A stretch of 35,333 nt of DNA from Pseudomonadota bacterium (GTDB taxonomy: Bacteria; Pseudomonadota; Alphaproteobacteria; ATCC43930; CGMCC-115725): the NCBI GenBank assembly GCA_021812165.1, contig JAKAOO010000006.1:1-35333 (forward strand). Direction: 5' to 3'. The position numbers were made by a program, and so were the translations under genes. The notes below the pieces were generated by a model. That model was not told where the DNA came from. It saw only the letters and a list, made by a program, of their open reading frames with translations, and did not search any database. Each line of letters opens with the position of its first letter. Position 1 is the first letter of the stretch. Positions 1 to 35,333 of the stretch are shown piece after piece.

Positions 1-176
1 GATCTCGTTTCTAGGTCCGGCGTAGGGTTCTCCAATACTTGTAAGCCAAGCTCCCGCGCCTCTTTGCGATTGATTGCGTGACCGTGGAAGTATAGCTTGG
101 ATGCTAGCGTCTCTACTATCTCGTCAATCTTGTGCTCATCGTTCATATGCGTCTGTAGTATCTTCCCTGCTATCAT
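1..176 (-). pseudogene. C-terminal fragment of SDH-type serine proteinase, cut off by a MITE
   Basis: Reading the minus strand from 176 to the window edge gives an uninterrupted frame with the stretches HKIDEIVETLASKLYFHGHA and INRKEARELGLQVLENP. The HGHxINRxEAxxLGL pattern is what I recall of the C-terminal part of the serine dehydrogenase proteinase family (ClpP/SppA fold). It is the continuation of the N-terminal part at 322-939. If the 177-bp insert and one copy of the target duplication are removed, codon Met-Arg-Ser (361-369) joins directly and in frame to Ile-Ala-Gly-Lys, giving at least 250 residues of one protein that runs past base 1. The fragment has no ribosome binding site of its own at the ATG (174-176), so it is probably not translated. 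Confidence 0.75.
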
Positions 177-182
177 ACGTGA

Positions 183-359
183 AGGCTTATCCCTCTGCGT
201 CAGGTGTTCCCAGATCTTGCGTCTTACGTCATGCCCGGACTTGTTCCGGGCATCCACGAAGTGATTGAGAGATATTCATATTTTTGCGCGTGGATGGCCG
301 GGTCACGCCCGGCCATGACGACTAACTGTTGATTTCACCGGAAGCAGAGGAATAAGCGT
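183..359 (-). mobile_element. 177-bp MITE, copy 1, inserted in the SDH proteinase gene
   Basis: The insert is flanked by 10-bp direct repeats TCATACGTGA at 173-182 and 360-369. Its ends are imperfect inverted repeats: AGGCTTATCCCTCTGCGTC at 183-201, against ACGCTTATTCCTCTGCTTC read on the other strand from 359. Inside are two strong hairpins, one built on CCCGGAC..GTTCCGGG (around 233-252) and one on GGCCGGG..CCCGGCC (around 296-313), themselves arranged as a larger palindrome. It is too short to encode a transposase. A second copy of identical length, about 93% identical by eye, lies at 35005-35181 in opposite orientation. Removing it restores the host reading frame. Confidence 0.85.
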
Positions 360-939
360 TCATACGTGATTGAGAGATAAATCGCTCTACATTTCCAAGA
401 GCTAGAGGATGCACTTTTTGTGCAAGTATTTCAATTGCTCTGACAAGTTCATCTTCATGCTGTATTCCGACGGTTGTTTTGATAAAGCTTACGTAAGCTT
501 TCACGTCTTCGACACTGATACCTATCAGGCGCCGAGTATCAGGATTGACGGGGTTGTATTCGTTCGTAACTGTGGGGTCGATTGGCCCCATTTCTGCAAA
601 CGGGTGCATGACGATTTCGTCCGCCCCCAAAGCAAGCAACGTAGCGGCGCTATATGCCCTATACGGAATCAAAACTCCTACGGTTTTTGCGAACTCGCGT
701 AGGAGAGAAACGAGACGCCAAGGAACTGTGCCCGAGCCCCCGTTGCTGCAGAGAAATACATCAAGCTTTTTTACCGGCTTCTCGGGTAAGAGCAACATTT
801 GGTCGAACATAACCCTCACCGCGTCGTCGCTCATTTGCGCGTTGAGGTTAGGCCGGACGGACGTGAGGTAGCAGATGACGTTGGACTGCCGCAACGCTTC
901 GATGCGTTCAATCAAGGAGATCCGTTCAGCGAATGCCAT
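322..939 (-). CDS. N-terminal part of SDH-type (ClpP/SppA-fold) serine proteinase, truncated by a MITE
   Basis: The predicted product is 205 aa, and the start at 939 follows a GAGGAGGGG ribosome binding site. The likely nucleophile serine lies in PYRAYSAATLLALGADEIVM (Ser97), followed by a GPIDP motif (119-122), both features of the serine dehydrogenase proteinase family of ClpP/SppA-fold enzymes. Family proteins are usually near 280 aa. Here the last native residue is Met193; the final 12 residues (NAYSSASGEINS) and the stop are encoded by the inserted 177-bp element, and the rest of the family sequence resumes beyond it at 1-176. The truncated protein keeps the catalytic segment but loses the C-terminal helices. 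Base composition is clearly more AT-rich than the neighbouring genes, suggesting recent acquisition. The cellular role of this family is not well defined. Confidence 0.8.
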   Translation of the reverse strand: MAFAERISLIERIEALRQSNVICYLTSVRPNLNAQMSDDAVRVMFDQMLLLPEKPVKKLDVFLCSNGGSGTVPWRLVSLLREFAKTVGVLIPYRAYSAATLLALGADEIVMHPFAEMGPIDPTVTNEYNPVNPDTRRLIGISVEDVKAYVSFIKTTVGIQHEDELVRAIEILAQKVHPLALGNVERFISQSRMNAYSSASGEINS

Positions 940-34934: not shown

Positions 34935-35229
34935 GCCTTGAGGCGTCTCATCAGCTCCTGCTCCTTGCGAAAGGCGTCCGGAAGGCTCCCGTATTTGAGC
35001 GAAATCGCTTATTCCTCTGCTTCCGGTGAATTCAACATTTAGCCGTCATGGCCGGGCTTGACCCGGCCATCCACGTGCAAAAATATAAATATTTCTCAAC
35101 CATTTCGTGGATGCCCGGAACAAGTCCGGGCATGACGTAAGACGCAAGATCTGGGAATACCTGACACAGAGGGATAAGCTTTTGAGCGAAATCGTGCAGT
35201 TGTCGAGAGCCTTCTTCAATTCTCCCAGA
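34916..35229 (-). pseudogene. 3' end of an unidentified gene, interrupted by MITE copy 2
   Basis: Removing the 177-bp element and one 10-bp duplication gives a continuous minus-strand frame of about 42 codons ending at the TGA at 34916-34918. It reads LGELKKALDNCTISLKYGSL then PDAFRKEQELMRRLKARQKG and a final Leu. The charged helical tail looks like a real C-terminus, but I do not recognise the family. As it stands, translation entering from upstream would run into the element. At its upstream edge (35230) another element end begins, so the gene may be broken twice. Its remaining part is outside the window. Confidence 0.5.
35005..35181 (+). mobile_element. 177-bp MITE, copy 2
   Basis: It has the same length as copy 1 (183-359) and is about 93% identical to its reverse complement by eye (about a dozen differences). 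It is flanked by the 10-bp direct repeat TTGAGCGAAA (34995-35004 and 35182-35191); the match extends by chance to 14 bases. Terminal inverted repeats are TCGCTTATTCCTCTGCTTC at the left and AAGCTTATCCCTCTGTGTC read inward from the right. It lies inside the 3' end of a minus-strand gene and is inverted relative to copy 1. Confidence 0.85.
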
Positions 35230-35248
35230 AGGCTTATCCCTCTGCGTC
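35230..35248 (+). repeat. solo terminal repeat of the MITE family, possible end of a parent insertion sequence
   Basis: AGGCTTATCCCTCTGCGTC is identical over 19 bases to the left end of MITE copy 1 (183-201), but the sequence after it (CGGGGCTGCAAAATG...) is unlike the MITE interior. This is what the end of a larger element sharing the same terminal repeats would look like. It would extend rightward past 35333. The stretch 35249-35333 holds no recognised gene; a GGGAGACCGCCGTG near 35320 could be the ribosome binding site and GTG start of a transposase. Confidence 0.6.
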
Positions 35249-35333
35249 CGGGGCTGCAAAATGTTGTGGTGGGCGGGGTCGGATTGTGATAGAACGAACC
35301 ACGAACGTGAGCCGATCGGGAGACCGCCGTGAC

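Follow-up and report, generated by a model that had tools for sequence, protein, structure and literature searches.

MITEs related to the IS1595 family of insertion sequences (ISs) are already known. The ISHwa6-related MITE of the archaeon Haloquadratum walsbyi, which belongs to this family, is described as a 165-bp element present in seven copies, with 25-bp inverted repeats and 8-bp direct repeats (PMC3852290). Target duplications of 8 bp are usual for the IS1595 family (PMC8101967). An Alphaproteobacterial member, ISAcr1, is an autonomous element of about 1.1 kb with the terminal inverted repeat (TIR) CTTGCCTATCCGGTTG. Among Alphaproteobacterial MITEs, MITEPye1 of Paracoccus yeei has IS1182-related ends, is preferentially intergenic and occurs in 1–3 copies per chromosome (PMC11578231).

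Here, a window of 35,333 nucleotides, i.e., the whole of contig C16 of an Alphaproteobacterial genome (3.66 Mb in 312 contigs), was analyzed. Near the start of this window, a gene for an SDH-type ClpP-fold serine proteinase has, very probably, been split by an IS1595-type MITE that was moved by the transposase of a resident IS1595-family element.

Results

Insertion Site and Boundaries of the Element

The 10-bp sequence TCATACGTGA was found at positions 173–182 and 360–369 and at no third site in the window; two copies occurred in none of 100 shuffled sequences. The insert has inverted-repeat ends of 27 nt (180–206 versus 336–362) that are 85% complementary. Removal of the insert together with one duplication (187 bp) fused two minus-strand frames into a single open frame of 303 codons, which runs off the contig start. 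The direct repeats, the inverted-repeat ends and the interrupted frame were, thus, all present as described in the initial annotation. That annotation had also given the duplication as 10 bp and the element as 177 bp, and both lengths were revised after comparison with further copies.

A search of the genome with the insert, as had been suggested there, brought the number of copies to about ten. Nine further copies showed 87–95% identity and had identical boundaries wherever boundaries were present; one more diverged copy and fragments were found besides. Four of the nine are cut by contig ends, as repeats in fragmented assemblies are expected to be. The complete copies, six in number, all measure exactly 179 bp and have the same termini (AAGGCTTATCCCTCTG...CAGAGGAATAAGCGTT); each stands between the two halves of a perfect 8-bp target-site duplication (TSD), which differs from site to site (CATACGTG, GCCGTGCA, TTCGCTCA, AGTTGATA, TCTCGCGA and TAGCATAT). 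In the proteinase gene, the MITE occupies positions 182–360 on the plus strand, between the left (174–181) and right (361–368) copies of CATACGTG, which are identical at 8/8 positions.

The base preceding the target is T in five of the six complete copies, the base following it is A in all six, and the MITE itself has A as its first base and usually T as its last. Because of these flanking and terminal bases, an 8-bp duplication looks like one of 10 bp at the proteinase site. On sequence alone, a TSD of 9 or 10 bp could be read here, but the ends of the element are symmetric with 8 bp, two copies break the 10-bp reading, and 8 bp is both the TSD length of ISAcr1 and the norm of the IS1595 family (PMC8101967). 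A TSD of 8 bp with a target-site preference of T-N8-A is the most likely reading, and the element boundaries are best taken as 182–360 (179 bp) rather than 183–359 (177 bp).

Copies of the MITE in the Genome

The MITE contains no complete ORF of at least 60 aa within its 179 bp and has no transposase gene of its own. Its multi-copy occurrence, constant length and perfect, site-specific 8-bp TSDs identify the element as a MITE. A second complete copy, with the TSD TTCGCTCA (minus strand), was identified by genome search and TSD comparison at 35004–35182 on the minus strand; at this other contig end, 46 bp separate it from the left end of an IS1595-family element (35004–35333 for the two together). 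Another copy (contig C275, 20401–20579; 1499–1677 of L002) interrupts a 384-codon open frame, which has distant uninterrupted homologues on Rhizobium plasmids that are annotated as hypothetical proteins.

Neither of the observations named beforehand as contradicting the reading was made: the full-length element was present in none of the 40 relatives searched, and the other copies share the same boundaries. The end pattern of the MITE was absent from 384 other genomes of the class and from viral contigs. When genome contigs were scanned for the TIR pattern common to the copies and the IS, the matches were all single ones that looked like chance, one per contig and from unrelated phyla. An Rfam search returned no match.

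Relation to a Resident IS1595-Family Element

The left terminal repeat of the MITE (182–204, plus strand) is identical at 22/23 positions to the left end of a resident IS1595-family element, and its right end (327–360, minus strand) at 29/34 positions to the right end of the same element; neither score was ever reached in 2000 shuffles. The left end of this IS lies at 35229–35333 on the plus strand, where it is cut by the contig end. Its right end is present, 100% identical, at four contig ends. As the contigs end inside the IS and no complete IS with these ends is present in the assembly, its assignment to the IS1595 family rests on its two ends together with two short pieces of coding sequence. 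The first piece belongs to a degraded copy on contig C207, where the ORF behind the left end starts with MTDFPRSLIEFQKRFPDEAACVEYLF and matches annotated IS1595-family transposases; its first codons are 70% identical to the transposase of Rhodococcus sp. DMU1, a protein that passes NCBIfam transpos_IS1595, and 62% to that of ISAcr1. The second is a C-terminal coding piece at the right end, which reads VFRFNRRRTRHAAFQSLLGIAAAHP and resembles ISAcr1 and the Rhodococcus element.

The sole PF12762 transposase in the assembly is encoded on contig C284 in another element; since the ends of that element do not match, it was rejected as the parent. The 105-bp left end of the IS gave no match on plasmids, nor in 38 relatives from the family. 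It is likely that the IS at 35229–35333 supplies the transposase that moves the MITE. With its multiple copies, fixed ends, TIRs and site-specific TSDs, the lack of a transposase gene and the ends in common with a resident IS, the initial classification of the insert as a MITE was upheld.

A REP Pair inside the MITE

The interior of the MITE contains two palindromic (REP) repeats on the plus strand, CGTCATGCCCGGACTTGTTCCGGGCATCCACG at 227–258 and a second one facing it at 289–320, both of which also occur outside the MITE. On contig C14, and likewise in several related genera of the family, the same REP pair occurs by itself with another spacer, in each case without IS-like ends. Since the central 95 bp of the element consist of this pair, the insert might be read not as an IS-derived MITE but as a plain REP/BIME-type palindrome that spread through a REP-associated (RAYT-like) mechanism. 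This is highly improbable, because the unit that moves in this genome comprises all 179 bp, has IS-like termini and is bordered by a TSD at each of the complete copies, the TSDs abut the IS-like ends and not the REP pair, and these ends match the resident IS1595-family element, whereas the stand-alone REP pairs have no such ends. The MITE is, thus, composite, with a REP pair enclosed between IS ends. A broader proposal, that IS1595 ends captured the REP pair, with the transposase as the vehicle dispersing REP pairs as a chimeric MITE-REP and, thus, as one route of their spread in the family, is a speculative one to which we give little weight.

In a diverged MITE copy on contig C299 (L010, 11–186), about 30 bp of additional palindromic sequence are inserted beside the second REP, which suggests that the REP part turns over within the MITE.

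The Interrupted Proteinase Gene

The 5' part of the gene, of 193 codons, lies at 361–939 on the minus strand and was assigned by PF01972 and homologue alignment; the 3' part lies at 3–181 on the same strand and runs off the contig start, with residues 190–253 of the homologue matching 6–185. PF01972 scored 38.4 bits for the interrupted frame, 51.8 bits for the joined frame and 60.6 bits for the closest homologue (G037, from the same class), against a Pfam gathering score of 31.3. For the equivalog NCBIfam NF047768 (Clp_like_SDH), the scores of the window (43.6 bits) and the homologue (64.9 bits) were below the curated cut-off of 250, and the proteinase is a divergent branch outside this equivalog.

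The G037 protein is 70% identical over 253 residues and uninterrupted across the junction. Against the genome, it aligned in two pieces (355–936 and 6–185), one on either side of the insert, and, relative to it, the flanks contained no stops or frameshifts besides the insert. Together with the PF01972 match, this bears out the original call of a split ClpP-fold proteinase gene. Further uninterrupted homologues, 25–38% identical, are present on plasmids. The search for an uninterrupted relative or an empty site, which had been proposed as a check, succeeded in part: the uninterrupted homologues amount to an empty site at the protein level, but no orthologous DNA site was obtained, as the eight sampled genus-mates lack the proteinase gene. 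It is also missing from most of the class.

These absences speak for the alternative that the insertion is real, but that the gene was already non-functional or a horizontally acquired remnant, so that the cell was not affected. The contig end, moreover, hides the 3' part, where other damage is possible. As both flanks are open, the identity to an intact homologue extends over 253 residues and the damage seen is confined to the insert, we consider this alternative possible but unlikely.

The open frame of the proteinase reaches upstream to 1098; as the homologues begin at 939, the gene start is probably 939 and not 1098. A creatininase-family gene (PF02633; 1083–1847, minus strand) upstream of the broken gene has a complete frame. 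Frame reading across the junction gave 12 foreign residues encoded by the MITE (NAYSSASGEINS; 322–360, minus strand), followed by a stop codon. The broken gene, if started at 939, would yield 193 native residues plus these 12 and then stop. Such an N-terminal product might still be used and keep proteinase activity, as the conserved segments YSA(A/G)T (here YSAAT) and GPID precede the break. This seems improbable given that about 60 conserved residues, including positions invariant in three homologues, and the unseen C-terminus lie past the break and would be lost. A PDB sequence search with the proteinase homologue gave no match, and the AlphaFold model of the homologue, with a mean pLDDT of 46.7, was too poor for use.

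Age of the Insertion

Compared with the family consensus, the MITE copy in the proteinase gene has 7 differences over 179 positions (4%). The copies on C275, C68, C70 and C88 and the right-hand copy of C16 show 0–3 differences among themselves and form the youngest cluster, outside of which the proteinase copy falls. Either the proteinase insertion would predate the youngest cluster or its source copy would have been a diverged one. That the TSD is intact and the gene shows no other damage argues against a very old insertion. The description of the insertion as recent is plausible but unsupported as it stood, since the divergence from the consensus and the position outside the youngest cluster have to be set against the intact TSD and the open half-genes.

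A 14-bp exact direct repeat, GTGATTGAGAGATA, was observed at 261–274 inside the MITE and at 366–379 in the flanking gene. The exact 14-mer is absent from the other complete copies; a change private to the proteinase copy completes the match. Its role as an alternative recombination site was dismissed: most other copies differ there, and the repeat is probably a chance convergence.

Discussion

In the proposed course of events, the IS1595-family transposase of the same genome would act on the 23–34-bp ends of the MITE and insert it, as IS ends with a captured REP pair, into a T-N8-A site within the proteinase coding sequence; gap repair would then yield the 8-bp duplication CATACGTG. We infer that the movement occurred in trans by the resident IS and that proteinase function was lost.

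The locus contributes a MITE family with clear boundaries and a likely parent, and a small example of a gene-breaking chimeric element in which IS ends enclose a REP pair. Its main use lies in annotating the genome: the proteinase is to be called a pseudogene, and the MITE explains several contig ends.

The ISHwa6-related MITE is, by its description, alike in size class, copy number, TSD length and IS family; it differs in its archaeal host, and the portion of the description considered mentions no REP pair. With ISAcr1 and other Alphaproteobacterial IS1595-family elements (NC_009468.1), the TIR form ..GCYTATCC.. and the 8-bp TSD are shared. ISAcr1 has the same architecture as the resident IS, with a related TIR, and in both the C-terminal coding end (FRFNRR...LLGIA) reaches close to the right TIR; unlike the autonomous ISAcr1, the MITE lacks a transposase gene. 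MITEPye1 likewise comes from an Alphaproteobacterial host and combines a long stem-loop with IS-like ends (PMC11578231), but it differs from the present MITE in the IS family to which its ends are related, in its intergenic preference and in its copy number. The kind of element is, thus, known, as IS1595-related MITEs of similar size are on record, and the family is new; the insertion into the proteinase gene is an ordinary, well-preserved case of a known kind of event.
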